From Liolophura sinensis (Eukaryota > Mollusca > Polyplacophora > Chitonida > Chitonidae): DNA of 64,000 nt. How positions within the stretch are numbered: position 1 is the stretch's first letter; the number at the start of each line of letters is the position of its first letter. Below, piece after piece: positions 8,201-35,151 of the stretch. A program made the translations under genes and the position numbers. Below the pieces are notes generated by a model. That model saw only the letters and a list, made by a program, of their open reading frames with translations, made no database searches and was not told the origin of the DNA. Location of the stretch: the NCBI RefSeq assembly GCF_032854445.1, contig NC_088303.1, forward strand, positions 15,383,501 to 15,447,500, in the 5' to 3' direction.

Positions 8201-11200
8201 ATTTATATGAGTAGTATCATTTGCTATATTGCTTTCACTTTTTGACTACGGCGTAAAACACCAATCAAATAAATAAATTTGATTTATCCACGTTTGCTGA
8301 TGCCTTATTAAGGTAGTCAAGTTTTCAGATACCTTGCTAAGAGCACTGGTCCACATCAGTTTCTTTCAGCTATAAACCTGATCATAATTGTAGATTATTT
8401 AAATTTATTTCTTTCGATTTTGTTCAATGCCATACTCAAGAATTTTTACATAAACCATGTACACGTATATGATGGTGGCATTTTGGACAGAAAATTAAGC
8501 TTGATAAAAAAAAAAGTTTGTGCATCAGCCTTGTATGGTCATGCAGTATGAATGCACTGAAAAGGTGAAACTTTTTAAAACCTGGCAATACTTTGTGTCT
8601 CTCAGTTTTCAATTTCAATTTAAAACTGTTTTGCAATAAGGGCCAACGTTACATTTCGCAAACCAATTTTTTTCTAAAATTAAATAATAAATGCATCTTC
8701 TCTGACATGTCTTAGAGAAAACACAATTAGATACATCAGCTTTCTGGCTTCTCTCCTTTTCTTGAGACTAAGTACACAGAAAGACACATACTACGACTAA
8801 TGAATACTGGCAATAAATCTTTCTTTTGAAGCTGTAGTGGAACTGTTTTATTCTACTAATGTGAAAAGAAAATGAATGCGGATATAATAACAAGGTCTCA
8901 CCCACAACAAGCCCCTTCCACAATTGCAATACAAAAAGCTTCCGTCAATGACGTGTTGAGAAATATATCGCCCTGCACTAAAACCTGCAAAATGATTTAC
9001 TAGTATTAACAAATATTTACATACACATGAACATGTATGTGTATTTCCAAGATTCTTGAATGGCCAAACTTAATGGGAACTCGCAAAACTCCTTTCCCCC
9101 GGTAACAAGACAGTATAAAGCTATGAACTCTTGTTCTTCTTCTTACATCAAAACTATCGGTGAATGTGTGCTCCTAAAACACATATGAAGTAAACACAGA
9201 CTGGACCTTTTGTGTAGCTCATCACTGAGGTTCCAATTCATGTTAGCTAAAAACATGCCAGACATGTGGCTACATTTAGACATTGAGCACTGACATGGTG
9301 GTATATGGTATTTGACTTCTACACCAGCAATCAAAATTATCAATGAACAGGCAAGGTCACCTCACATGTAAACCTCATCATACATATTATAATTTATTGA
9401 TTTAATCCAAACATAATGAACGTAAATGTTCACTGATACGACTGTGGTGAGATTTAATATGTCTAGAGGAAACAAGAGTGACCAAAATAAATCGCATCTA
9501 TCTCCTGGAAACCTCTTAATTTAAATCCGCAGCAGAACTTTTGACAGCTTGATTCAATCCTGCGACTTCAGTGGTCAAGGGTAGATCTGCTACAGTGAGA
9601 CCATTGCTTTGGACGGTGAACCAGGGAAGGTCCCTCATCCCTACCCCACTCATGAAAGAAGACGACAGCCAAGCTTGTTGGAGCACATACAGCATCACTT
9701 TTCAGCAAGAACTCTATAAACTCAAGCCAAAGTCTGCTGGTACATGTATCTTCTGGAATATGTATCTTTACCTCTTGTACTTTACTGTGTTCCAGGCTGC
9801 CTAGGAGATGAACTCTGTCATGTAGCTCATATTTCTCCCTTACTTCCTCCAGGAGAATCCTCTTTGGACCATTCCCACCTGCACATCATGAACAGACATA
9901 TATTTATTTATTTATTTATTTATTGACAGGTGTTTAACGACAGTTGTTTAACAGCCTTTTTACTCTCAAGTCAAGCCCAATATGTATGCCACTAACATGC
10001 AGGGAACTTCAGGCTAGACCACCAGGAATCCTCACAATTCCCTCTCCAGGGCTGAGGGGGCTAAGACTGCCCACCACCCCGTGTACTGATCCATTCTAAG
10101 AGCACCAGAAATACTCCACGAATCCTCACAATTCCCTGCCCAGGAATGAGGGGGCTGAGACTGGCCCACCACCCCGTGTTCTGATCGATTCCAAGAGCAC
10201 CAGAAATACTCCAGGAATCCTCACAATTCCCTGCCCAGGAATGAGGGGGCTAAGACTGCCCACCACCCCGTGTACTGATCGATTCCAAGAGCACCAGAAA
10301 TACTCCAGGAATCCTCACAATTCCCTCTCCAGGGCTGAGGGGGTTGAGACTGGCCCACCACACTGTGTGCTGATCGATTCCAAGAGCACCAGAAATACTC
10401 CAGGAATCCTCACAATTCCCTGCCCAGGAATGAGGGGGCTGAGGGGGCTGAGACTGGCTCACCACACCGTGTGCTAATCGATTCCAAGAGCACCAGAAAT
10501 ACTCCAGGAATCCTCACAATTCCCTCTCCAGGGCTGAGGGGGCTGAGGGGGCTAAGACTGGCCCACCACACCGTGTGCTGATCGATTCCAAGACGAGCAG
10601 AAATACTCCAGGAATCCTCACAATTCCCTCTCCAGGGCTGAGGGGGCTGAGGGGACTGAGACTGGCCCACCACACCGTGTGCTGATCGATTCTATGAGCA
10701 CCAGAAATACTCCAGGAATCCTCACATTTCCCTCTCCAGGGCTGAGGGGGCTGAGACTGGCCCACCACCCCGTGTACTGATCCATTCTAAGAGCACCAGA
10801 AATACTCACGGAATCCTCACAATTGCCTGCCCAGGAATGAGGGGACTGAGACTGGCCCACCACATCGTGTGCTGATCGATTCCAAGAGCACCAGAAATAC
10901 TCCAGGAATCCTCACAATTCCCTCTCCAGGGCTGAGGGGGCTGAGGGGGCTAAGACTGGCCCACCACACTGTGTGCTGATCGATTCCAAGAGCACCAGAA
11001 ATACTCCAGGAATCCTCACAATTCCCTGCCCAGGAATGAGGGGACTGAAACTGGCCCACCACACCGTGTGCTGATCGATTCCAAGACGAGCAGAAATACT
11101 CCAGGAATCCTCACAATTCCCTCTCCAGGGCTGAGGGGGTTGAGGGGCTGAGACTGGCCCACCACCCCGTGTGCTGATCGATTCCAAGAGCACCAGAAAA

Positions 11201-14200
11201 ACTCCAGGAATCCTCACAATTCTCTCTCCAGGGCTGAGGGGGTTGAGACTGGCCCACCACACTGTGTGCTGATCGATTCCAAGAGCACCAGAAATACTCC
11301 AGGAATCCTCACAATTCCCTGCCCAGGAATGAGGGGGCTGAGGGGGCTGAGACTGGCCCACCACACTGTGTGCTGATCGATTCCAAGAGCACCAGAAATA
11401 CTCCAGGAATCCTCACAATTCCCTCTCCAGGGCTGAGGGGGCTGAGGGGGCTAAGACTGGCCCACCACACCGTGTGCTGATCGATTCCAAGACGAGCAGA
11501 AATACTCCAGGAATCCTCACAATTCCCTCTCCAGGAATGAGGGGGCTGAGACTGGCCCACCACCCCATGTACTGATCCATTCTAAGAGCACCAGAATATA
11601 CTCACGGAATCCTCACAATTCCCTGCCCAGGAATGAGGGGACTGAGACTGGCCCACCACACCATGTGCTGATCGACTCCAAGAGCACCAGAAATACTCCA
11701 GGAATCCTCACAATTCCCTCTCCAGGGCTGAGGGGGCTAAGACTGGCCCACCACACTGTGTGCTGATCGATTCCAAGAGCACCAGAAATACTCCAGGAAT
11801 CCTCACAATTCCCTGCCCAGGAATGAGGGGACTGAGACTGGCCCACCACACCGTGTGCTGATCGATTCCAAGAGCACCAGAAAAACTCCAGGAATCCTCA
11901 CAATTCTCTCTCCAGGGCTGAGGGGGTTGAGACTGACCCACCACACTGTGTGCTGATCGATTCCAAGAGCACCAGAAATACTCCAGGAATCCTCACAATT
12001 CCCTGCCCAGGAATGAGGGGGCTGAGGGGGCTGAGACTGGCTCACCACACCCTGTGCTGATCGATTCCAAGAGCACCAGAAATACTCCAGGAATCCTCAC
12101 AATTCCCTCTCCAGGGCTGAGGGGCTTGAGGGGGCTAAGACTGGCCCACCACACCGTGTGCTGATCGATTCCAAGACGAGCAGAAATACTCCAGGAATCC
12201 TCACAATTCCCTCTCCAGGGCTGAGGGGGCTGAGGGGACTGAGACTGGCCCACCACACCGTGTGCTGATCGATTCTATGAGCACCAGAAATACTCCAGGA
12301 ATCCTCACAATTCCCTCTCCAGTGCTGAGGGGGCTGAGACTGGCCCACCACCCCGTGTACTGATCCATTCTAAGAGCACCAGAAATACTCACGGAATCCT
12401 CACAATTCCCTGCCCAGGAATGAGGGTACTGAGACTGGCCCACCACACCGTGTGCTGATCGATTCCAAGAGCACCAGAAATACTCCAGGAATCCTCACAA
12501 TTCCCTCTCCAGGGCTGAGGGGGCTGAGGGGGCTAAGACTGGCCCACCACACTGTGTGCTGATCGATTCCAAGAGCACCAGAAATACTCCAGGAATCCTC
12601 ACAATTCCCTGCCCAGGAATGAGGGGACTGAAACTGGCCCACCACACCGTGTGCTGATCGATTCCAAGACGAGCAGAAATACTCCAGGAATCCTCACAAT
12701 TCCCTCTCCAGGGCTGAGGGGGTTGAGGGGCTGAGACTGGCCCACCACCCCGTGTGCTGATCGATTCCAAGAGCACCAGAAAAACTCCAGGAATCCTCAC
12801 AATTCTCTCTCCAGGGCTGAGGGGGTTGAGACTGGCCCACCACACTGTGTGCTGATCGATTCCAAGAGCACCAGAAATACTCCAGGAATCCTCACAATTC
12901 CCTCTCCAGGGCTGAGGGGGCTAAGACTGGCCCACCACACCGTGTGCTGATCGATTCCAAGAAACACATCTCCATTGCACTCCACCACCAGCCCAGTGGC
13001 GCTTAGTGCCTGGAGTTTACTGTCTGGTGTTTAGTGCTTTGCATGCTGAAGTGTTTTTCACTTATATGATTGCTGTCAGTTTATAGGTCAAGAAAACTAT
13101 AATTGTACCCATTGCATTAATTCCTTAACTCTATATCAGTTAAAGGTTAGCAGCATGTCATGCATTCTTAAACCACTGTATCAGTGATTCGTATACATAT
13201 CAAGTATGCAGTACAGTGATAAACAGAGGCATGTACATGTACATGTACTAAGTGCATGTACTAAGTACATTTTGAATAAGATCAACCTTTCGTATCATGA
13301 GAAGAAAACAGATGAAACATCACGCAGAAAGCAATGCTATGCACATTCAATTTTTCTGGATAGATAGCATTTCCACTGATATACTGACCAATAATAAACT
13401 GGACGTCTGGGTGTTTAAGACAGAGCTCTGGGATGATTCCGGCCAGTAGGTCCATTCCTTTCCTGTACACAAGACGACTGACCACCACTATGGTCACTGC
13501 AAAAGAATTAGGGATAGATATACCTGTATGTAAATACAAAACGAGAATTCTAACTTAATATATGGTAAATTACCTACAGTTTCGCCCTGGGACTCGGAAA
13601 TTGTATCCCAGGGTTCATTGCGTTGATTGTGATTGTTAATGACTGAGCGCCGCTGGAGAGCATCAAGGATGGTCAGGGGATTATACTGACAGTTCAAGAG
13701 TGTAATAAACAAGCTAACGCTTCACTGAGCAGTTACTCTATGCTCCTCCCACCAACAGTTCATGTTTTCCTCAGTTTTAATCATAATAATTTTAGTACTT
13801 GCACTTCACAATAGGTTGATTGTCTTGTTATTATTATTTTGTGATAAATGGGAATTTGGGAGAAAACTTTGTGGAGATTAAGTGTGACTAACCAGTACCT
13901 TTACCCATGTGGAGTGTCATGCCAAATATCGGTATCTGAGTTTAAACCTCAGGGCTCTCCGTATACAAAGCTGTGGCAGAATTTAGCACACAAATCACTC
14001 TTTTTTGTTGTCTTGCCGCAACTCAGATTGTGCCAAAGTAAATGACAAGAACTCACATGTGACACTTCAGGTCATTTACCGTAATTACAAGAGGACAGAC
14101 GACATACGGTACATGTATATTTTCATGATTTAGGACATAGAACTTCATCACAGCCATATGTATTGTATTTTTGTTTCATTTGTATGGCATATTCAACAAT

Positions 14201-17114
14201 ACTTCACATCTATAAAACTGCTGGTAATACTTTCGAGCAGGGGAAAGTGGGATGGGAAGAAACAACCAACGCTCAACAGACACCTCAAACCTCTGGCAAT
14301 CGGGTGTACCTGAGTTGTACATGTATAAGCAGGTAGAACACTTAACCTCATTGGTTAATAGTTAGGGAACAGAGACAGTACAGAAGGCACTCCCTGGGTG
14401 CTTTGTTTAATGAATCTTCCTGAAAGAGTGTGGCTGTTTGTATGCATTTCCCGTAGGTCCCTGCCTGACTACATCAGATCAAGTTCATGTACCTGATGAA
14501 CAGGAAATATTCTTCAGTACCACATAAAAACACAAGTAAAATATTAAAATAAGTGACAAAGTGTACACCAACTAAACACACAATTTCACACTTTTTTCCT
14601 GATGATCAAAAATACCGAAAACAGCTTTAATATCAAGATCTTCACATATGAACCTCTGTTGCATCGTGTATCCCATTCATTATACAATCCTTTTCTATAA
14701 TGTGATCCAACACATGAAATCATTAAAATTTCCCGTGCATCACAAAGATTGACCTTACCTTTGCCAGCATGTCTCTTACTAGGATCTGGTGTAAACATAG
14801 CTGCGTCTACAGCATTGGGGATTACTGACACTTTGTCTGGAGCAATGGAGGCTCTAAGCACTGTATTCTCCTTGCTGTAAACAGGTGAACACATCACAGA
14901 CTTACATGGAATGCTAAGCTTCTTAAACCAAGGTAAACACATCACAGGCAGGATCTGTCTGAATGGGGTCTACTGCTTTGCTCAAGAATTTATTAGTTTG
15001 CAAAAGAAGACAAGTTCTGTGGTCCCCACTATAAAACTATCACTACATGTTTGCCATTTCAAAATACAGAAATTTATGCATGCCCATCTCTAAGATAAAG
15101 ATAGTTACCATTTGCCTGTGATGTTGAATATATGATTTTAGAGTCAACAACTCTCGTGGGTATGACAAAATTGGATTTCAAAACTGTAGACTGGTGAACA
15201 CAAATGAACTCTAAATCCATTAGAGAGTACAACACCATATAAGCCATACAGCCGAAGTGGAGTTAATGCTTTATAGTCAGTCTTATCATTGAATTCCTCA
15301 TAAATTTGTCAAACATCACCTGACTGCCATTAGTAATTCAGGAGTACCCAGTAACATGTATTTTAAAAATTACCTTGTATGAGATACACATATCACATGA
15401 CTGCAATCAGCCAATGAAAACTTGAGAACCTTGTTGGTGAGGATGGAACTGGCATCGGCAAACCCAAACAAAGAATGGTCTGTGAAAATGGCCTTGAGTC
15501 CCATGGTACGTGCATGAAACATGGCTTCATGGGCCAAGGTGGAGAAGGCCTACAACACAGAGAATAAGTTCAATACAACAACAGAGTCATGAGAGTGACA
15601 CTGGCTTGACATTTGATTCTATGGCAAAATGATGGCTTTGCTTCACAGCAAGGTAGACATGCATTATCCTCTACATATGTATCTTTACAATGACAATTCT
15701 TGTTGACTTATTAAAAACCATCAATATTGTAATATTTGACAATCAAACCTAATTAAGAACATAATTCAGAAAATTAATCTAATTCTGTTTTATTAGTTTT
15801 CTATATTTTATACATCACCCCAAGTTAAAATGTTTTGTAAAGCAACAACTACAAAGGCAAAGGCATGTCACTCTGTCATTGTAATGCCCTGTCTTAAAAT
15901 GTGCGGTCATTCACATATTAATCTTTGCCCATAAATCGTTTTAATGGCTTGTTCAAATTGTAAAACGTGGATTACATAAATATTACAACATTAACATGAA
16001 GCATGTTACTCGGCACTGTACCTAAAGCATAATTTTATCAGTCCACAAAAAATAATGTCGTCAGGACATGCTTAAATAAAGACCTTGTAAACATGTGAAA
16101 AGCTTCAAGAATTGTAGTAGTAGAAGTCAGCTACACTACTCCACTCGATAGTAGCACGGATAAAAAGTTTACAGTTTTCACAAAAAAATTATACTCACGG
16201 AATGGCCATGTACAATAGAGATGCTTTCTCGTATAAAAATATTCCTGAGAAGTGGGAATGTTGTAAAGATGGTGGGCAGGATGCACTGGTTATACATTGT
16301 CACAAATGGCAGGTAGTATACCTGACAAATTGAAAATAAACACCTTGTAACACCTATGTATGTATGTCTTACTAAACAGGATACAAAATGGGGATGATTG
16401 TGTAAGTGTTACACTTTTTTCTGTTAATTTTTTCAGTGATGCAATTTGTATCTTATGTTTGGCCAGGATTGAAAGTTTACACAGACAATACTTTGTTAAT
16501 AATGCCATGCCTTCTTTCACCTTGGGTTTGCAACATGGAGATCATTCGACAAAGACGCCCTCGTTCATTCACCTCATTGTGAAAGCAAAACACAAGAACT
16601 AATACATTGTTTCAAGTATGAATGACTGAAACCACCAATGATATCACTACATTCTAGAAGCAAACCGAAATCTACAACAGCTTGCCTTTTTTCATACAAG
16701 GTAAGATTGAACAATACTAATATATTAATAGTACCTAATGGTGGAAATATTTTCATACATAAAAATGATCACATATTTCTGAAAATTCAAAGTGTTGCAG
16801 TTCACCAGAAAGCATAATAATACCTAACAGACCCCAAATAACTGACAATAGTTTAGTACAATTTTGAGTAAACATTATGGTGTTTTATGAACATGGTGAT
16901 GCTAGTTCCATTTGTAAAAATTGGTCTCTTCCTTTAACAGAGTCAAGTGCTGTCTTACTTTAAGGCCATTGGTGAGGTAGCGCACACCTCGTCTGTCACC
17001 ATAGAAATGGGTGATGATGATGACCTTGTGACCTCTGGCTAAGAGACACTGGGAGAGTTGGTATATGTGACTCTCCACCCCTCCCATGTTCGGGTAGAAG
17101 AAATCTGATACCAT
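5202..17114 (-). CDS. PIGA: PIGA: GPI N-acetylglucosaminyltransferase catalytic subunit, 11 coding exons
   Basis: Catalytic subunit of the ER complex that transfers GlcNAc from UDP-GlcNAc to phosphatidylinositol, the first step of GPI-anchor synthesis. Coding exons in minus order: 17114-16959, 16321-16199, 15549-15374, 14874-14759, 13496-13389, 9878-9772, 8984-8902, 8153-8068, 7057-6877, 6037-5938, 5327-5202. All have GT/AG borders and the phases close, giving 453 aa (human about 484). Family landmarks in order are [20 protein letters not shown] at the N-terminus, [36 protein letters not shown] (GT4 glycosyltransferase core), [22 protein letters not shown] with the GT4 E-x7-E region, [14 protein letters not shown], and a C-terminal membrane helix ([20 protein letters not shown]) followed by a basic lumenal tail. 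The start is the ATG of MVSDFF because an in-frame stop lies upstream if the candidate leader exon at 19028 is used. The vertebrate-type N-terminal extension is therefore absent. Introns hold a MITE, SINEs and a large minisatellite. Confidence 0.93.
6541..6640 (+). mobile_element. SINE fragment (tRNA-headed family A), 3' part
   Basis: Degraded copy of the SINE tail (…ATATAAGCGTAAAATTCTTGAG… AACAATCAAATC…AAATAAA) within a PIGA intron. The tRNA-like head is missing. Confidence 0.6.
7078..7645 (+). mobile_element. TTAA-flanked MITE, copy 1 (longest)
   Basis: Non-autonomous DNA transposon in the PIGA intron between coding exons 8 and 9. Both ends carry the inverted repeat TTAAAGGAGAAGAAAACTT (left 7079 on; right end 7624-7645 is the near-perfect reverse complement). 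TTAA at each outer edge suggests a TTAA target duplication. It shares internal blocks with copies at 27432-27614 and 56601-56984, including AAAATGGAGTCGCCCACAGC. It holds about 190 bp that copy 3 lacks. No transposase is encoded. Confidence 0.75.
8215..8280 (+). mobile_element. SINE family A tail fragment
   Basis: The motif ACGGCGTAAAACACCAATCA followed by AATAAATAAA marks the 3' end of the SINE. It lies just beyond a PIGA exon. Confidence 0.55.
9895..9945. repeat. (TATT)n microsatellite with SINE-tail remnant
   Basis: Simple TATT repeat followed by GACAGGTGTTTAACGACAG, which resembles an inverted, decayed SINE tail. It lies at the edge of the large minisatellite. Confidence 0.5.
10014..12962. 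repeat. Large GC-rich minisatellite (95-104 bp unit, about 30 copies) in a PIGA intron
   Basis: Tandem units read CCAGGAATCCTCACAATTCC, then TCTCCAGGGCTGAGGGGGCT (one or two CTGAGGGGG modules), then GACTGGCCCACCAC and GTGTGCTGATCGATTCCAAG. Units are about 95 bp with one G-rich module and about 104 bp with two. Distinctive variants (TCTATGAGCACC; CAAGACGAGCAG; ACTCACGGAATCC) recur at a constant 1583-bp offset, so about 1 kb of array (roughly 10270-11310) is copied at about 11853-12893. The array lies between PIGA coding exons 5 and 6. It is open on the minus strand in overlapping short frames, but unit length is not a multiple of three. Confidence 0.92.
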
Positions 17115-18406
17115 GCTGTGGAAGACAAAAGTACGGAAATCAACAGATACAAGAATAAAAAGTAAAACACAATTAAAGTCTTGCAGAGTGCATTATTGAT
17201 CAGTAACAACTGTACATCAATTCTGTGACATTTACATGCATCTTGAATGAATTTGACTGGCCGCAAGAAAATTTAGAGAATTAGTCGTTTATCAAACAGT
17301 TTATAGTGTTTTTTCCCTGCCTCAAATAGCAACACCAAAATATACATCTTGCCTATGTAACTCAGCCTGAAGTGAGTGGTCCTGACTGTCTCTGGAGAAT
17401 CAAACCAAAACAGTAATGCCACCAGTACACACTCCATGCTCCGCCATCTACAGCAATGTTGCTGCTAGGGTGATAGATGAAGAAGCATAAAAATTTACTG
17501 CATGTGTTATTGTTTTGGTTCTTCAGTATACTTCGGACTAAGTTGAGACGGAATACTTATCAATATTTGTGTCGAAGATTTGTTGCAATTTGAAGAGTGG
17601 TAAAAATACTATGGACTTTGAGTATTTTTATTTCAATTTACCCAGGAGTGTCTCTGTGGCTAATAGCAATAGTACAGAGTCTTGTCAAAGAGATGCTAAG
17701 GGTCTACAAAAGACACATGGTATCCTTTATGACACATGGAGACATAAAATTACTACACTTACCACACATTGTGCTTCATGCTCAAACAGATGTTGATTTC
17801 TGTTGATTTCTGTCATTTGAGACTGTAACTCAAATTTGTTTTCTGCAGCTTCTACTTAAGAGAGAATCATTTCTTCTGTAGGTCAATGGCATCCCAACAA
17901 ATGCACTGTTCAGATTTGAATCCTGTCAAAACATCACGCAAAGGTTTGATGACAAATATTAACTTGAGTGACAAAGAGACCAAATTTGGTTAACTTTCCA
18001 TTTAATACATATGCACACATGTAAGTAATGGAAACCAACTTTGGAAGTAATTTCTCGGGTATTGATGTCTCATAACTGGTTATCTAATAAAACTGGTTAT
18101 CCGCTTTGTCATGTTAGGGCAAGGAATGTAAACATACTTAAGTACATGTATCACCTACACCTATGTCTACTTGCAAACTCAAAAGTTTAAAACTATAATG
18201 ATGAAGCTCAAAAGGTATAAACAATATGATATGCTCCACATTTTAAGATGTACAAAGACGCTTTTATTTTATACAGAACGTAAATCTCTGTTCAACATAC
18301 TAAGAATGGAAAAGAGTAGGAACATCATTTTACTTTTCTAATTATGGTGCATGAATTCATTAACTTTAGCACATTAATTACATTAGTTTTTAGTCCTATA
18401 CAATAT

Positions 18407-19012: not shown

Positions 19013-19410
19013 ACAAGACATACGTACCAAGTTCATTGATAATACATCCATGATTCCCCTCTGACATTATATCGAAGTTGACATGCTTGTCACCGGATAT
19101 ACGACTTGTAACCATTTGCACCTCCAGACAAACGAGAGGTGCAATTTCATACCGACGTAGAAGTGGATAAATTTACCAACTTCTGAGCCAAAGGTAGGTA
19201 TAAAAGATTTAGTTTCAAGACAGCCAGACGTCAAAACATGCATATATTTAGTTTCTTTGATGCGTAAGGTGTGAAATTCGCAAATGATTTGTTCCTTGTG
19301 TCGCGCGCATCTGTCACCGACCGGACCCCCATCGGATCCCAGTTTTCGTTGTAAGGACTTTTTCTACCTCCACGCTGAAGAGCCAACGTTGCGCGAGAAG
19401 AAAAGACAAG
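19013..19410. promoter_or_regulatory. Candidate bidirectional promoter, PIGA (-) and pogo-PHD gene (+)
   Basis: The first coding exon of the plus-strand gene starts at 19411. On the minus strand a good donor (AACTTG/GTACGT) ends a possible non-coding PIGA leader exon at 19028. The interval is richer in CpG than its surroundings (for example GTTGCGCGAGAAG near 19390). No TATA box is evident. Shared promoter activity is inferred from the head-to-head layout. Confidence 0.4.
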
Positions 19411-22400
19411 ATGCCGGGGTCTCGCCGAAGTAAATACAGACGTAAAAGCAGAAGTCCGATCAAAGTTAAGCTTGTGAAGGTAGGAATAAGCTCGGTTTGT
19501 ACTTAAAGATGTTACTAAATAAGAAACGGTGAATATGGTGTGTGTTGGTTGTATCATTGGTGGTCCATATTTCGGCAAATTAATGTTGACCCGCAGACAT
19601 TCGCCATGACGAAAAATGCCCGCGTTTTAGTGCGCCAGCATTCCGTGACCCAGTTTTACACTCGGCTGGCCGATTTGGCTTTGCAGCGGCTGTAAATTCT
19701 GTTTATATCTACATTTGAGAAAATGACCACAGTCAGTAAACGGCTGAGAACTATTTCGCGTCTTTCACGCTGTGTAGAAATTTTCAGTGATATTGATGAG
19801 ATAGTGACAAAACTTGGATTTGACCTGCTACCATTGTCACTGACAGACAAACACTGACAGTGACAGTGAAAGAAATTCCGTTTAGTTTGACTGCTGTGAA
19901 AATCCCAGAATGTAGCCTAAACTTCTCTAAGTCAGTGATACAAATTCTCTCAGACAGCATGACATTCTCTATTATGCACTGACAGACTGTATCATTTTGT
20001 TGTGATGGGCCTAAAGTGATTTGTTTAATACTAGACATGCTCATGTTACCATTATATTTTAGGGAACATGTTTCATAATTTAGTTATGTAACTGGGAACA
20101 CTGTTTTTTTTTTTTTGTTTTTTTTTTTAATATTTGTTTATTTTGATCATTATGTATATTTATTTATTTTATTTTGGGGGGTTATTTTTGTTTATTGCCT
20201 ATTGGCTTGTTATGAAGCCTAAAAGTTTAGCAATCAGAAGGCCCATTGCAGTTGCCCAAAATGAGGAGTGGCTTAAATGGATCGCACGCAGAGAGTCTTT
20301 GTCAAGGAGACTATATCATTTGACAGCTCACCTTGTGGAAATGTTCTCCTGAATATCCAGATTACCCTTATTCTTCTAATTTTTGGGACAGATAGTTGCA
20401 TTTCTTTCCTCGCTTTTTGGAAAAGGAAAGATATGAGTTGTTCATTAGATGGGTTAACCATGTGAGAAAAAAGAAACTAAATGTTGATGTCAAATCAGTC
20501 ATTTAAATTGTGCATGACAATTGCAGTCCTTTTGCCGTATATTGGTATAAAATATATTTTCTGCAAACTCTGCCCGGTTTCCTCCCACCATATTGCTGGC
20601 TGCTGTCGTATAAGTGAAATATTCTTGAGTGCGTCATAAAACACCAATCAAATAAATAAATAAATTCTGCAAACACAGATGGAGTGCCCTACATAGACAC
20701 AAGGATTTATATTGTACATAAAAATTTATACTGGTACATAGGAAACATGGGGAGATCTGCACGTTTTAGTTGATGGCATTGTATTGAGTTGGTATGTAAT
20801 TAGTGTAACAATAACATTAATTAATTGTTTGTATATTATATATATGTTGCACATATTAATTTTTGTTTGATCAGGATTATTTTAAGCCTTTCCTTCTTGT
20901 GATATGTTTAGTATAAACTAAGATATGGTAGAAACAGATTTGCAGATACATGGATCTGACATCAGGAAACCGTAATTTCCAGGATGTTATTCTGCATTTA
21001 TGCTTAGAATGCTTTGTGTCAAATGTCTTTCAGGCCAAGCCACATGACCATAATTTTTGAAGAAACAGTGCATCATTTGTTCATCTTGAAAATTTTTAGC
21101 TGTCTGCAAGTTGCCTTTCAATCCTCCCACCTTAATGCTGGCCGCCATCGTATGAATGAAATGTTTTGAATACAGCGTGAAACATCAAATAAATAAATAC
21201 ATCAGTCAGTCAACTGATTTGACAAATCAAAAAAAAAAACCTGTTTCACCTTGGAATTTTAGATTTATAAATATGTTCCAAACACTACAAGATGCCCTTT
21301 ACACTTTACTCCACTGAAATGTTCTGAGTCTGGCTACTTCTAGTCAGGGTGACTTACAAATAAAAAAAATCTTCAGGATGGACAGTGATTTTACAAAGAG
21401 ATATATGTCCCTAAATGAGTTAACTAGGTGAAAGTAACAATAAAGTAAATGGGTTTTTTTTTACTGAATTGTGGTATATACACTAGGGGCAGCAAGGTGG
21501 TTTCCAAGTCATGTACGTGTAAGTTCTGAAAATATGACCAACCTCTTAAGGTTTTATAAATGCTAGGCACCCAAGCTAGAAGATACATTCATATAACTTT
21601 AGCATGGGTGGTGAACATCTGTGTGTCATCATGTGAGAAAGTTACTTGCCAAATGCTCTAGGCTTATTTTAGGCACTCAGTTCTCCTTTGCCCTCAATTT
21701 TGGCCTGTATAATTGAAATATTGATGAGTATAGCATTAAACCCAAACCAATCTATTAAATGAATACATAGGTATAAGATGGATCAGAATCTCGTGACTGC
21801 CTTGGTGACCTGAGGTTTAGATGGTTAGCCTCGGAGTTGGGAAACCTGGGAACCCAGTTGGTTATACCAAAGACTTCAAAAATGGAGCTTGTTGCTGCCT
21901 TGCTGGGCGCTCAGGACGGTGAGGTTAGAGCAAGAAAGCAGGACTCAGAAAGTAATTCCCAGTCTTACTATTTGAAACTTAAGAAAGAACTATAATATCA
22001 TAGTTGCAGTTGTGTGAGTGTATAATGAGTGTATAAGATTTTTAATGACTGTTTCTTTTTTTTTCTTCTTTAAGACCTCTCCAAAGAAAGGAAGATACAT
22101 AAAGGCTGAACCCAAGTATGAAAGTGAGTCAGATGATCAGGAAGAGGTTGACAATGGAGATACCAGCCAAGCTACAGTAAGTGTATTCACATAACATGTA
22201 CACACTCAGAAATACAAGTTCTTTATTTATTTATTTATTTATTTGATTAGTGTTTTACACCGTACTCAAGAATATTTCACTTATACAACGGCAGCCAGCA
22301 TTATGGTGGGAGGAAACCGGGCAGAGCCCAGGGGAAACCCACGACCATCTGCAGGAGAGGAAGCCAGCATGAGCTGGCAAGTTCTTTAAGTTGTATTGTA

Positions 22401-24573
22401 ACTGATATTGTGCGAATGATTAAGGCTATAGTCTAACAAACTACTGGAATAAAAAAAAAAGGGCATGGAGAGTTAATATAGAAAAGGACATGACACTTTG
22501 AAGTGTGCCAGAGGAAAGATAACAATTCAGTAACTGGTATCTGGCCTTTGTGATTGTCGACGCTAAAGTTTTCATGTTTCTTCCGCTATTTTATAATGTA
22601 GGTAATGATGAAAGAGTCTTAGGATTTCTTCTAATCGTTTTCAGAGATCTTCATCCAAAAGACAGCCCTACAGGAAGAATTATTCGATGAAAGATCTTCT
22701 TAATGCCTACAATATGGTAAAGTATGAAAACATGCCTGTTCAGACAGCTGCCAAGACTTTTGGGGTCCCCTCAACTACCCTTCGCGATCGGGTTCGAGGG
22801 AATGTGAACCTGGAAAGCGTTCGACCTGGCCCATCTTCACTCCTGTCAATTGAGCAGGAAATGACCCTGGTAGATCACATCAGTTACATGGCTTCCATTG
22901 GCTGTGGTTACACACGCAGTGACATATTTGACCTGGCCACAAGCCTAGCTGTTCATTTAGGGCTCATTGAAGAAGGGCGGCAGCTGCAGAGAAGCTGGTA
23001 CCGACGATTTAGGTCTAGATGGCCAGTGATAAATGCAGTAAGGCCAAAGAAAAACTCCAGGAAGCGCTCTCAGGCCGCTATTGCTCTAGAACAAGAGTCC
23101 ATCAAAAAGTATTTTGAAGAGTTGCGAGCAGTTCTAGAAAAACATGATCTTTTGGAAAAACCTCAGCGAATCTTTACCTATGATGAAAGCTTCGTCCCCC
23201 AAACTCGAGACATGGATGCACCAGAAACGTGTGCAAAGATTCTGGGATGTGGCAATGGGATCGGGAGTGCTCTACCGCCATACCTTGTTTTTCCAGAAAG
23301 CCCAGATCCAGCCTGTGAAAGACCTGATGATAAAGTTGTTCAGAGTGCACCACCAGGAAGTCTTATTAGGTTCAGGGAAAATTATGATGATTGGTCGGAA
23401 GCAGAAATATTTCAGGACTACGTTCAAGCTCATTTCTTGAAATCTGCAGAAGTTGGAGGCGCTACACCAGAGGATCCTGTTCTGATATTGTATGACCGCA
23501 CTAAACACCACATCAGCTCCTGTATTGACTGGGCTAGAAAACTCAACGTGGTGCTGTTTTTGTTGCCACCTTTTTATGGCTACGCAGCAAGAAGCGAAGA
23601 AATCGGTTGCTTAGGGCAGCTTAAACGTATTTGCTTGCAAGAGTGCCATAAGTTCTTGTTCTTCAACTTGGGTAAGGTGGTGAACAAAACAGAACTTTGC
23701 AAATTCATTTGTCAATCCTATGAAAAAGTTATGACCCCAACTAATCTGATCGCTCTGTTTAGAAAAACTGGAACGTACCCTTACAACCCTGATGGTATTG
23801 CAAAGGACCGACTGCATGCCTATATCATCATGCCCAACCAGGAAAAAGTCGCCAAGACTTCCGACACGCTGACGTCGGCCTTCATACAACAGACCCGGAG
23901 CAAGGCGCGCAAAACTCCCAAAAAAGGGAAAACCACAAAGCGTGCAACAGTGACCACGTCCAGAGGGAAGCGCAAAGTCAAGAAGGAAGTATCCAGTGAA
24001 TCTGACTCTGAGTTTGATTGGGACTCTGGGCCAGAGTCTGCTGAAGCCGAGTCAGATCCAGACTCAGAAGTAGAAATAAGGAGGTCTCCAAGGTCATCCA
24101 GGACGTCAGGGTTCACGGTGAAACGGTCTGTGGAGCTGATCACAGCCGAGGTGACGGACAGTTCCAGGGAGACGCAGACAGAGCAAAGTGTCACCGTGCC
24201 GGTGCACAATGTCCTGACCGAAGGCGTTCCTGAGCCAGAAGTGCCTGATGAGGAAGAAGAATATACCTGCTACACTGACGGAGAGCTATTTGCCTTGCGC
24301 TGTGTCATCTGCAAAAAGTACAACCCGCCTCCTACGTTTATGACAGAGGGCGAGTCCGTGATCAGTTGGACGCAGTGTGATTCCTGTCAGGCCTGGAGTC
24401 ATCTCTGTTGCTCAACCCTCTCCATTCCCTTCCCAGATTGCCCTTTCCTGTGTCCAACCTGCACCGCAGAGTTCAAGCTCTTCTGCAACAACTTCACCTC
24501 GGCCAACATTACGGAGTGGCTGAATGCCAAGAGGGCAATAACCGAAAACATTCTCAGTGCACAAAATGGCTGA
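19411..24573 (+). CDS. Pogo-type DDE transposase-derived protein with psq HTH and C-terminal PHD finger, 3 exons, 699 aa
   Basis: Exons 19411-19479, 22075-22176 and 22645-24573 have GT/AG borders and all introns are phase 0. Residues 1-71 are a basic, then acidic leader (MPGSRRSKYRRKSRS…). Residues about 72-115 form a pipsqueak-like HTH (DLLNAYNMVKY…AAKTFGVPSTTLRDRV), followed by a CENP-B-like helical region to about 185. A DDE_1 catalytic fold runs about 225-450: first acidic residue in TYDES (D237), second in LILYDRTKHH (D341), third in SEEIGCLGQLK (E376), then FRKTGTYPYNPDGI. The linker about 470-560 is rich in Lys/Arg and then Ser/Asp/Glu. Residues 610-663 form a C4HC3 PHD finger (CVIC, QCDSCQAWSH, CPTC). 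The usual pogo signatures DGHxSH and QPLD are replaced, so cutting activity is doubtful. Introns, a unique leader and divergence from PIGA suggest a host chromatin or DNA-binding protein. An old intact transposon that captured introns is the alternative. Confidence 0.85.
20570..20666 (+). mobile_element. SINE family A 3' half
   Basis: Reads CTGCCCGGTTTCCTCCCACC, then TATAAGTGAAATATTCTTGAG, ending ACACCAATCAAATAAATAAA. It lies in intron 1 of the pogo-PHD gene. The tRNA head is absent. Confidence 0.75.
21118..21200 (+). mobile_element. SINE family A 3' fragment
   Basis: CTCCCACCTTAATGCTGGCC followed by a decayed tail and CAAATAAATAAATA. Same intron as the copy at 20570. Confidence 0.6.
21815..21970 (+). 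mobile_element. SINE family B copy
   Basis: tRNA-like head (box A-like TTTAGATGGTTAGCCTC) followed by a body with TTGCTGCCTTGCTGGGCGCT and CAGGACGGTGAGGTTAGAGC. The body matches copies at about 31560, 32745 and part of 25270, and is distinct from family A. Confidence 0.55.
22221..22380 (-). mobile_element. SINE family A, inverted, in pogo-PHD intron 2
   Basis: Starts with (TTTA)n, then GTGTTTTACACCGTACTCAA and CCAGCATTATGGTGGGAGGA, and stops within GAAGCCAGCATGAGCTGG. The tRNA head is truncated. Confidence 0.75.
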
Positions 24574-24973: not shown

Positions 24974-25073
24974 AATAAATGTTTTTGTGCTGTTTTTCCT
25001 CTTCATAAATAAACTAAATATTCTTTGTTTTTGTTGACTTTATACCTTTTGGATAAGGAATATCCTGAATAAA
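24974..25073 (+). terminator. Polyadenylation signals of the pogo-PHD gene
   Basis: Three AATAAA hexamers at 24974-24979, 25008-25013 and 25068-25073 follow the stop by 400-500 bp. The 3' UTR is therefore about 0.4-0.5 kb. Confidence 0.55.
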
Positions 25074-28692: not shown

Positions 28693-31234
28693 GAACGTAC
28701 ACACTTGCCCAATTCCAATCCGTAAGCCTATCGTTAATTTATATGCTGCTCTCGATAAATGAAAACGTATACACTTGCCCAATTCCAATTCGTAAGCCTA
28801 TCGTTAATTTATATGCTGCTCTCGATAAATGAAAACGTACACACTTGCCCAATTCCAATCCGTAAGCCTATCGTTAATTTATATGCTGCTCTCGATAAAT
28901 GAAAACGTATACACTTGCCCAATTCCAATCCGTAAGCCTATCGTTAATTTATATGCTGCCCTCGATAAATGAAAACGTACACACTTCCCCAATTCCAATC
29001 CGTAAGCCTATCGTTAATTTATATGCTGCTCTCGATAAATGAAAACGTACACACTTGCCCAATTCCAATCCCTAAGCCTATCGTTAATTTATATGCTGCT
29101 GTCGATAAATGAAAACGTACACACTTGCCCAATTCCAATCCCTAAGCCTATCGTTAATTTATATGCTGCTCTCGATAAATGAAAACGTATACACTTGCCC
29201 AATTCAAATCCGTAAGCCTATCGTTAATTTATATGCTGCACTGAATAAATGAAAACGTACACACTTGCCCATTTCCAATCCCTAAGCCTATCGTTAATTT
29301 ATATACTGCTCTCGATAAATGAAAACGTACACACTTGCCCAATTCCAATCCCTAAGCCTATCGTTAATTTATACACTGCTCTCGATAAATGAAAACGTAC
29401 ACACTTTGCCCATTTCCAATCCCTAAGCCTATCGTTAATTTATATGCTGCACTGGATAAATGAAAACGTACACACTTGCTCATTTCCAATCCCTAAGCCT
29501 ATCGTTAATTTATATGCTGCACTGAATAAATGAAAACGTACACACTTGCCCAATTCCAATCCCTAAGCCTATCGTTAATTTATATGCTGCTCTCGATAAA
29601 TGAAAACGTACACACTTGCCCAATTCCAGTCCCTAAGCCTATCGTTAATTTATATGCTGCACTGAATAAATGAAAACGTACACACTTGCCCAATTCCAAT
29701 CCCTAAGCCTATCGTTAATTTATATGCTGCTCTGAATAAATGAAAACGTACACACTTGCCCAATTCCAATCCCTAAGCCTATTGTTAATTTATACGCTGC
29801 ACTGGATAAATGAAAACGTACACACTTGCTCAATTCCAATCCGTAAGCCTATCGTTAATTTATATGCTGCACTGAATAAATGAAAACGTACACACTTGCC
29901 CAATTCCAATCCCTAAGCCTATCGTTAATTTATATGCTGCTCTCAATAAATGAAAACGTACACACTTGCCCAATTCCAATCCCTAAGCCTATCGTTAATT
30001 TATATGCTGCACTGAATAAATGAAAACGTACACACTTGCCCATTTCCAATCCGTAAGGCTATCGTTAATTTATATGCTGCACTGAATAAATGAAAACGTA
30101 CACACTTGCTCAATTCCAATCCCTAAGCCTATCCAATCCCTAAGCCTATCGTTAATTTATATGCTGCACTGAATAAATGAAAACGTACACACTTGCTCAA
30201 TTCCAATCCGTAAGCCTATCGTTAATTTATATGCTGCACTGAATAAATGAAAACGTACACACTTGCTCAATTCCAATCCGTAAGCCTATCGTTAATTTAT
30301 ATGCTGCTCTAGATAAATGAAAACGTACACACTGGCTCAATTCCAATCCGTAAGCCTATCGTTAATTTATATGCTGCTCTCGATAAATGAAAACGTACAC
30401 ACTTGCCCATTTCCAATCCCTAAGCCAATCGTTAATTTATATGCTGCACTGAATAAATGAAAACGTACACACTTGCTCAATTCCAATCCGTAAGCCTATC
30501 GTTAATTTATATGCTGCTCTCGATAAATAAAAACGTACACACTGGCTCAATTCCAATCCGTAAACCTATCGTTAATTTATATGCTGCACTGAATAAATGA
30601 AAACGTACACACTTGCCCAATTCCAATCCCTAAGCCTATCGTTAATTTATATGCTGCTCTGAATAAATGAAAACGTATACACTTGCCCAATTCCAATCCC
30701 TAAGCCTATCGTTAATTTATATGCTGCACTGAATAAATGAAAACGTACACACTTGCCCATTTCCAATCCCTAAGCCTATCGTTAATTTATATGCTGCTCT
30801 CGATGAATGAAAACGTACACACTTGCCCAATTCCAATCCGTTAAGCCTATCGTTTATTTATATGCTGCACTGGATAAATGAAAACGTACACACTTGCTCA
30901 ATTCCAATCCCTAAGCCTATCGTTAATTTATATGCTGCACTGAATAAATGAAAACGTACACACTTGCCCAATTCCAATCCCTGAGCCTATCGTTAATTTA
31001 TATGCTGCTCTCGATAAATGAAAACGTACACACTTGCCCAATTCCAATCCCTAAGCCTATCGTTAATTTATACGCTGCACTGAATAAATGAAAACGTACA
31101 CACTTGCCCAATTCCAATCCCTAAGCCTATCGTTAATTTATATGCGGCACCGAATAAATGAAAACGTATACACTTGCCCATTTCCAATCAGTAAGCCTAT
31201 CGTTAATTTATATGCTGCTCTCGATAAATGAAAA
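28693..31234. repeat. 70-bp minisatellite, about 36 tandem units
   Basis: The unit reads ACGTACACACTTGCCCAATT, CCAATCCCTAAGCCTATCGT, TAATTTATATGCTGCTCTCG, ATAAATGAAA, with a very regular 70-bp period. Two subtypes alternate irregularly: GCTCTCGATAAA and GCACTGAATAAA (also GCACTGGATAAA). A short internal duplication is at about 30121-30145. The array ends about 520 bp upstream of the ANKRD49 start codon. No coding frame persists. Confidence 0.95.
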
Positions 31235-34700: not shown

Positions 34701-35151
34701 CAAACAGATCATTTTAGCTTCATTTTAATAATAATTAGGCCCATATGCGTAAATTCCATTGACAAAAGTGCTTTAGCGGCTGAAAAAGGTTGTTGTTATT
34801 TTTTTTTTTTAGTTGCTAATATCTCGGGGAGCCGACATTGAAGCTCAGACGTCAGATGGCTGGAGACCTCTTCACAGCGCTTGTCGCTGGAGCAACACAA
34901 CAGTTGCGTCCCTTTTGTTGCAGAGCGGCGCTGAAGTAAATGCTCAGACTCATGGCGGACAGACGGCGCTTCACCTAGCCGCAGCCAATCAGGACAGTCG
35001 GGAAACCTTGCAGCTTTTATTACTGGATGAAACTATACAACCAAACTTGAAAAACAGTATCGGAGAAACAGCAAAAGATATATGTCGACGAACAAGTGAA
35101 CTGTGTAAGCTTTTTGAAATGACAGAGGATTGTGTAAATAATCTTTATTGA
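31759..35151 (+). CDS. ANKRD49: ANKRD49: ankyrin repeat domain-containing protein 49, 4 exons, 258 aa
   Basis: Small ankyrin-repeat protein. The human orthologue (239 aa) is a nuclear/cytoplasmic protein linked to spermatogenesis and transcription. Exons 31759-31938, 33114-33210, 33971-34131 and 34813-35151 splice in frame. The N-terminal 90 residues are acidic and disordered (PELTEIPGEDESK, WEDDDEGVENLSLEE). Ankyrin repeats follow: KKILWAAENNMLETVEEMLN, TALHRASYNDHLDMVKLLIS, RPLHSACRWSNTTVASLLLQ and TALHLAAANQDSRETLQLLL. The C-terminus GETAKDICRRTSELCKLFEM…CVNNLY matches the family's distinctive C-terminal end. The start ATG 31759 sits in a Kozak-like ATCATGGCG context. An acceptor-like TTTTTACAG at 31735-31743 just upstream could begin this exon, so a 5' leader exon is possible. 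The gene ends tail to tail with the SLC17 gene, 569 bp apart. Confidence 0.92.
32340..32540 (-). mobile_element. SINE family A, inverted, in ANKRD49 intron 1
   Basis: GGTATTTTACGCCGCACTCC, ATATTTCACTTATAC, then the CCCACGACCATTCACAGG body and GAAGCCAGCATGAGCTGG. About 15-20% diverged from the copy at 58558, with the tRNA head lost. Confidence 0.7.
32745..32900 (+). mobile_element. SINE family B copy in ANKRD49 intron 1
   Basis: AAAATGGACATAATTTGTTG, CACTTGGCGCTCAGCACTGA and GGTTGGCCTGGTGTCAGTAT are diagnostic blocks shared with copies at 21815 and 31560. Confidence 0.55.
32960..33080. repeat. Short AT-rich tandem repeat (about 27 bp, 4 units) just before ANKRD49 exon 2
   Basis: Repeated CTTGTAGATATTTCA and GTTTTTTGTACATTTTTCAT variants run up to about 30 bp before the exon 2 acceptor at 33113. 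Diverged units. Confidence 0.6.
34283..34342 (+). mobile_element. SINE family A tail fragment in ANKRD49 intron 3
   Basis: CTCGTATAAATGAAATATTC, then TTGAGCAGGGCGTAAAACAA and CAATCAAATT. Tail only. Confidence 0.55.

Follow-up and report, generated by a model that had tools for sequence, protein, structure and literature searches.

A likely domesticated pogo transposase bearing a PHD finger in the chiton Liolophura sinensis

A gene with the domains of a pogo transposase and a C-terminal PHD finger lies in the genome of the chiton Liolophura sinensis, and the question it raises is whether the host has taken it over or whether it is the last intact copy of a mobile element. It occupies positions 19411-24573 (+) of the window, the whole stretch of 64,000 nucleotides analysed here (contig NC_088303.1 of assembly GCF_032854445.1, positions 15,383,501 to 15,447,500), and is called the window gene below. 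The assembly (632 contigs, 609,464,459 bases) was originally published under the name L. japonica according to an excerpt of PMC11068029, for which PMC12441733 is the correction. The window gene is likely, if unproven, to be a domesticated pogo-superfamily transposase of a PHD-bearing subfamily. The evidence is its anatomy, its single copy, the terminal repeats that were sought and not found, the change of its catalytic motifs, and its kinship with four broken relics (L017-L020) and a second intact gene (L001).

The window gene comprises three exons with GT-AG introns, which join in phase 0 to an open frame of 699 residues. An earlier note on this DNA had described a three-exon gene with a psq helix-turn-helix (HTH), a DDE_1-like core, a linker and a C4HC3 PHD finger, and the joined frame and the domain matches (Table 1) bear this out. 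The leader (exons 1 and 2) provides 57 residues, has a chance of ≈ 1/15 of being open by codon arithmetic, and is probably coding. The protein matches canonical pogo loci of the genome with an expectation value (E) of 5e-26 across residues 4-371, in support of the pogo origin proposed earlier, and the psq/CENP-B-type HTH followed by a DDE_1 core place it in the pogo superfamily by descent. In a single-sequence structure prediction the exon-3 protein reached a predicted local distance difference test score (pLDDT) of 38, the psq region being the one long stretch modelled confidently. The weak HTH matches of this model among solved structures (LCoR, 2cob, Z 4.8; Tc3, 1u78, 4.5; CENP-B, 1hlv, 4.0) were level with those of ferritins and further helical proteins, and the best 50 structure matches held no PHD or DDE core, a result that is uninformative with a model of such low confidence. 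The several polyadenylation signals of the earlier note correspond to three AATAAA hexamers at 24974, 25008 and 25068, 400-500 bases past the stop, though the hexamer is over-frequent across the whole window (150 observed vs 87 expected).

The catalytic core of the window gene was compared in an active-site alignment of 16 proteins, namely the window gene, L001 and 14 other pogo loci (about nine families, several near copies). With L001 set aside, aspartate occupies all three catalytic positions in 14/14 of the other loci; the second acid is embedded in D-[NG]-x-x-[ST]-H and the third in Q-P-[LA]-D, again in all 14, and a histidine stands two residues past the second aspartate in 13 of them. 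The window gene reads D, D, E, the last two acids being 34 residues apart, and the translation places acidic residues at D237, D341 and E376, exactly as had been claimed. It retains the first motif D-E-[TS] as DES, while the second and third motifs have been replaced by DRTKHH and RSEE, so that the altered pogo signatures of the earlier note now stand against 14 canonical loci. Over 52 conserved columns chosen on 15 representatives, the representatives retained 38-52, the window gene 25/52, L001 24/51, and the four relics 15/36, 12/27, 10/18 and 4/13. At 13 active-site columns (235, 237-240, 341, 343, 345, 346 and 373-376), counted by eye and without a significance test, the window gene and L001 each retained 4/13, against 13 of 19 readable cells in the relics; in the other core columns the window gene kept 13/24, and in the N-terminal columns 8/13. 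It is absent among the genome's 102 DDE_1 matches at E ≤ 0.001, a sign of how strongly its core has diverged.

A genome search with the exon-3 protein gave at least 64 matches, the best 70 of 99 candidates being scored. Among these the window gene is a single copy: it matched itself at 100%, and the next loci by score, L002 and L003, at 30%; L001 is 29% identical to the window protein, and short relic pieces reach up to 36%. Terminal repeats were sought in two scans. The first looked for TA-flanked 20-base inverted arms (window gene: left side 15.5-22.6 kb, right side 24.6-29 kb) and found arms matching at 16-20 of 20 bases in 7/14 long-frame pogo loci (L004, L005, L008, L010, L011, L013 and L016). 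It missed L002, L003, L006, L009, L012, L014 and L015, at least L012 because the fetched stretch ends within the element, and L007 lay outside the scan. At the window gene it returned only inverted copies of a short interspersed nuclear element (SINE) in intron 2 and downstream (best pair 22265/26390), and no pair had its left arm ahead of exon 1; L001 gave no arms, and the relic L018 only a TTTA-repeat pair (18/20). The second scan used 16-base arms, shuffles as background and seven pogo controls, four of which reached 15-16 (L004, L010, L011 and L016) vs 11-14 in shuffles; L002 and L012 were negative, and L008 was lost to the composition filter. The window gene scored 12 ahead of exon 1 (shuffles 11-13) and gave only the SINE pair ahead of exon 3, L001 scored 13 (shuffles 11-12), and the relics L018-L020 scored 12-13, equal to their shuffles. 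Further copies and TA-flanked terminal repeats, which the earlier note had named as refuting domestication, were thus not seen at the window gene, which is single, intact and without detected mobile ends, a state expected of a domesticated gene. Pattern searches of viral contigs gave no match and those of prokaryote contigs 13 matches, none of them a relative; these are not mollusc sets and are silent on orthologues.

Four relics of the subfamily (L017-L020), all broken, survive in the genome and match the window protein piecewise. L018 and L019 hold PHD remains with W.QC; L018-L020 are 73-90% alike in DNA, SINE excluded, and a DNA search with L019 recovered L018-L020 and one short C1 fragment, L017 not being among them. 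The context of the second acid reads DGH in L020 and D-S-Y-T-S-H in L017, which makes a canonical motif probable for the ancestral element. L001, by contrast with the relics, is intact; its catalytic positions read E, D, S, the serine being placed beside an alignment gap, its psq match lies above the cut-off, its PHD ligands are present, and it has no DDE_1 match at E 0.01. With L001 as query (E 0.001) the window gene was listed at 5.6e-23 and L017-L020 were unlisted. The 3' flank of L001 carries repeats of ≈ 100 bases that resemble, by eye, the final section of its coding sequence. In a tree with fragments anchored on the window protein, the window gene and the relics grouped with a bootstrap of 90, and together with L001 with 96; in a reduced set leaving out the relics L018 and L019 the values were 86 and 89. 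These second trees leave out L028, L033 and eight near-identical copies; L015 is in no tree, nor are L021 and L034, which gave no piece at the cut-off.

As for the PHD finger, Pfam recognised it at E 4.3e-3 and 17.5 bits, below the cut-off of 24, when the C-terminal 70 residues of the window protein were searched alone. All eight zinc ligands in C4HC3 order and two tryptophans are retained, and these ten are among the 12 columns invariant across four pogo PHD domains. A profile of these four domains, that of the window gene included, matched solved PHD fingers with a best E of 1.6e-6, its top matches being EBS, SHORT LIFE, KDM5B, PHF23, PHF13, a KDM7 homologue and MLL. The window PHD alone matched the KDM7 homologue at 2.5e-3 and KDM5B at 4.4e-3, and its nearest solved domains are the KDM7 homologue, KDM5B, SET3 and SPP1. 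The PHD fingers of the KDM7 homologue, KDM5B, BPTF, PHF13, EBS and similar proteins read methylated lysine 4 of histone H3 (H3K4me), and the C4HC3 order is common to these (3n9l, 2ma5, BPTF, PHF13, EBS) and the window PHD. W561 and W570 (numbering of protein P0001) align with tryptophans in both 3n9l and 2ma5 and are likely cage positions by alignment alone; the single-sequence model of the domain has a pLDDT of 50. Sequence comparison thus supports the view that the window PHD is most like H3K4-methyl readers. It differs from the PHDs of L002 and L012 in that its first two cysteines are followed by a longer spacer, and H3K4me reading is a prediction.

Where did the PHD come from? L002 and L012 show the order psq, DDE and C-terminal PHD of the window gene within one open reading frame, with an acceptor-like site before psq (PHD matches in Pfam at E 9.7e-3 and 9.7e-5, neither reaching the cut-off), and the PHD or its remains are present in L002/L003, L012-L015 and the relics L018 and L019. 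Unlike the window gene, L002/L003 and L012-L015 are multicopy and have canonical D-D-D motifs, and terminal repeats were found in L013. L002 and L003 are 99.4-99.6% alike and L012-L015 96.6-98.6% over ≈ 3.7-4.0 kb; because these are near-identical copies and L013 has terminal repeats, the PHD evidently travels with mobile elements. Since two multicopy pogo families carry it, it is ancestral and was inherited from the transposon, and its capture from the host on domestication was rejected. The finger described in the earlier note stands, and its likeness to H3K4 readers is supported; a gain of the PHD on domestication is not.

Several observations weigh against domestication. Over all 52 columns the relics retain 41/94 readable cells, a share similar to that of the window gene, so that a large part of its divergence characterises the subfamily rather than domestication. 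The window gene is still acidic at all three catalytic positions, and glutamate also occurs in the pogoR family, as given in parts of PMC7386202. The absent repeats are moderate evidence, as the scans missed 7/14 loci and 3/7 controls. In a first tree with automatic fragment placement, the window gene and the relics grouped with a bootstrap of only 54, and with L001 of 75; the choice of relics by similarity to the window protein itself favours this grouping. Furthermore, an intron before psq and a PHD are ordinary for pogo loci of this genome: in 6/6 other loci viewed (L001, L002, L006, L008, L012 and L016; by eye, acceptor side only) the start/psq region is immediately preceded on its 5' side by a pyrimidine-rich CAG. 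The leader intron, which the earlier note had taken as a sign of domestication, was therefore rejected as proof.

Along these lines, the window gene might be an orphan transposon copy without host function, the last one as yet unbroken in a low-copy pogo family that is dying out. As the relics attest, the subfamily was formerly mobile in this genome; the PHD and the intron ahead of psq belong to the family as a whole, and the relics share a large part of the divergence. The SINE in intron 2 differs from the majority of 20 listed copies at 5/135 positions (3.7%), by that clock a short residence; the SINE may predate the insertion, and its dating was not used as proof. This explanation is nevertheless unlikely. 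The gene lacks recognisable repeats, its catalytic motifs have changed where 14/14 other loci kept them, and at 30% to the best-scoring other locus it is still free of stops. L001, a second single-copy gene of the subfamily, is likewise intact with altered motifs. In simulated random change of exon 3 (300 trials, without indels) the frame stayed stop-free in 3% of trials at 5% change and in 0.3% at 10%, and all four relics hold stops while the frame of the window gene is intact; this would point to selection acting after the loss of the repeats. The CpG content of coding parts failed to separate host genes from elements.

On the other hand, a domesticated transposase might still cut DNA, as a DD34E nuclease in host excision or recombination. 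In line with this, the three positions are all acidic and 34 residues separate the second acid from the third, and pogoR elements are DD29-59D/E in the portion of PMC7386202 consulted. The acids alone prove little, as domesticated POGZ is DD35D and JRK DD32D/E in the same portion; with the surroundings of the acids altered (the 4/13 active-site columns counted above), such an activity is improbable. That a host PHD gene captured a transposase by exon fusion, as two leader exons of unknown origin and a terminal PHD might suggest, is highly improbable, since psq, DDE and PHD share a single exon and multicopy pogo families show the same domain order, as do remnants in the relics; the PHD of the L002 and L012 families refutes it.

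For the domesticated transposase the following course may be proposed. A PHD-bearing pogo element would have become fixed beside PIGA, would have lost its recognisable terminal repeats and changed at its catalytic motifs, and would meanwhile have retained its open frame, psq HTH and PHD finger; its source subfamily would now be represented in the genome by nothing more than broken relics and two intact single-copy genes. The protein may be nuclear, with psq binding DNA and the PHD reading the H3 tail (most likely H3K4me2/3), and could have a role in chromatin or transcription that involves no transposition. A tentative extension, itself rather doubtful, is that the window gene and L001 are two host genes from one PHD-bearing pogo subfamily otherwise extinct here, paired chromatin readers in which the host took over the histone reading by which the element had first chosen its target sites, perhaps silencing relics that bear the old binding sites.

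The housekeeping neighbour placed head to head with the window gene by the earlier note is PIGA-like by one exon (Glyco_transf_4 1.8e-7; PIGA 9.2e-4, below its cut-off). Further exons are presumed to be PIGA; two of those so assigned have no Pfam match, and two exons have no match among solved structures. Within this gene lies a minisatellite (10022-12962, 95-base units, ≈ 30 copies), and the 90-166-codon open frames in it are probably due to the repeat. Just upstream of exon 1 is a 249-base direct duplication with 100% identity (18407-18655/18764-19012). Downstream follow a tandem array (28694-31234; 70-base units, 36 copies, a 210-base period also fitting) and an ankyrin-repeat gene (34813-35148 (+), Ank 1.1e-15), which we take to be ANKRD49-like.

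Table 1. Features of the window gene, its surroundings and its kin; positions refer to the window unless a contig handle precedes them
Feature	Position	Strand	Basis or remark
PIGA-like gene, several exons, ends approximate, head to head with window gene	9571..17192	-	one exon with Pfam match
CpG-rich stretch spanning exon 1, putative promoter	19201..19800	.	CpG observed/expected 1.32 and 1.20, two 300-base bins
Exon 1, probably coding; basic leader of 23 aa	19411..19479	+	ATG, open frame, GT donor; inside CpG-rich stretch
Exon 2, probably coding; 34 aa with an acidic end	22075..22176	+	AG acceptor, GTAAGT donor, phase 0
SINE-like dispersed repeat, intron 2	22219..22355	.	at least 39 other copies, 85-97% (best 40 of 1255 candidates)
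Exon 3: psq HTH, DDE core, linker, PHD, stop	22645..24573	+	within 653-codon open frame
HTH_psq match	22711..22812	+	Pfam E 6.4e-4, 19.8 bits, just under cut-off 20.4
HTH_Tnp_Tc5-like second helix-turn-helix	22852..23025	+	Pfam E 0.058, weak
Codon of D237, first acid	23182..23184	+	translation, alignment
DDE_1 match, degenerate	23242..23631	+	Pfam E 4.9e-3, 16.9 bits, cut-off 22 not reached
Codon of D341, second acid, in DRTKHH	23494..23496	+	translation, alignment
Codon of E376, third acid, in RSEE	23599..23601	+	translation, alignment
Linker, basic then acidic	23896..24096	+	translation
C4HC3 PHD finger, first to last zinc ligand	24301..24462	+	ligand alignment, profile search, Pfam
L001, intact pogo-PHD gene	C8:8118771-8120474	-	single copy; 568-codon open frame
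L017 relic	C9:6989k	.	piecewise match, 4 stops in matched pieces
L018 relic	C9:19591k	.	2 stops in matched pieces; middle of protein deleted
L019 relic	C13:4110k	.	1 stop in matched pieces
L020 relic	C8:33915k	.	4 stops in matched pieces

Domestication of pogo transposases is well documented in vertebrates, as parts of PMC7386202 attest, and reported in some molluscs in parts of PMC10027918. POGZ, POGK, JRK, JRKL, TIGD2-7 and CENPB resemble the window gene in being single genes with HTH and DDE_1, their acids often partly kept; the likeness is drawn without a claim of orthology, and Table 1 of PMC7386202 names no PHD among the vertebrate genes, the extra domains in that part being KRAB, ZNF and CENP-B dimerisation. 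The mollusc CENPB and HTH-psq factors derived from transposable elements, as presented in parts of PMC10027918, are a case of convergent pogo domestication such as is proposed here. The word PHD is absent from the main texts of three surveys of pogo or transposon-derived factors (PMC7386202, PMC7325037 and PMC10027918), and the word chiton from that of the last. Titles and abstract openings among the literature matches listed, mostly open-access and without supplements, name no PHD-bearing domesticated pogo gene. If the proposed reading is true, a histone-reader domain would have travelled inside a DNA transposon and been retained when the cutting motifs were lost, with the remains of the source subfamily still visible in the same genome.

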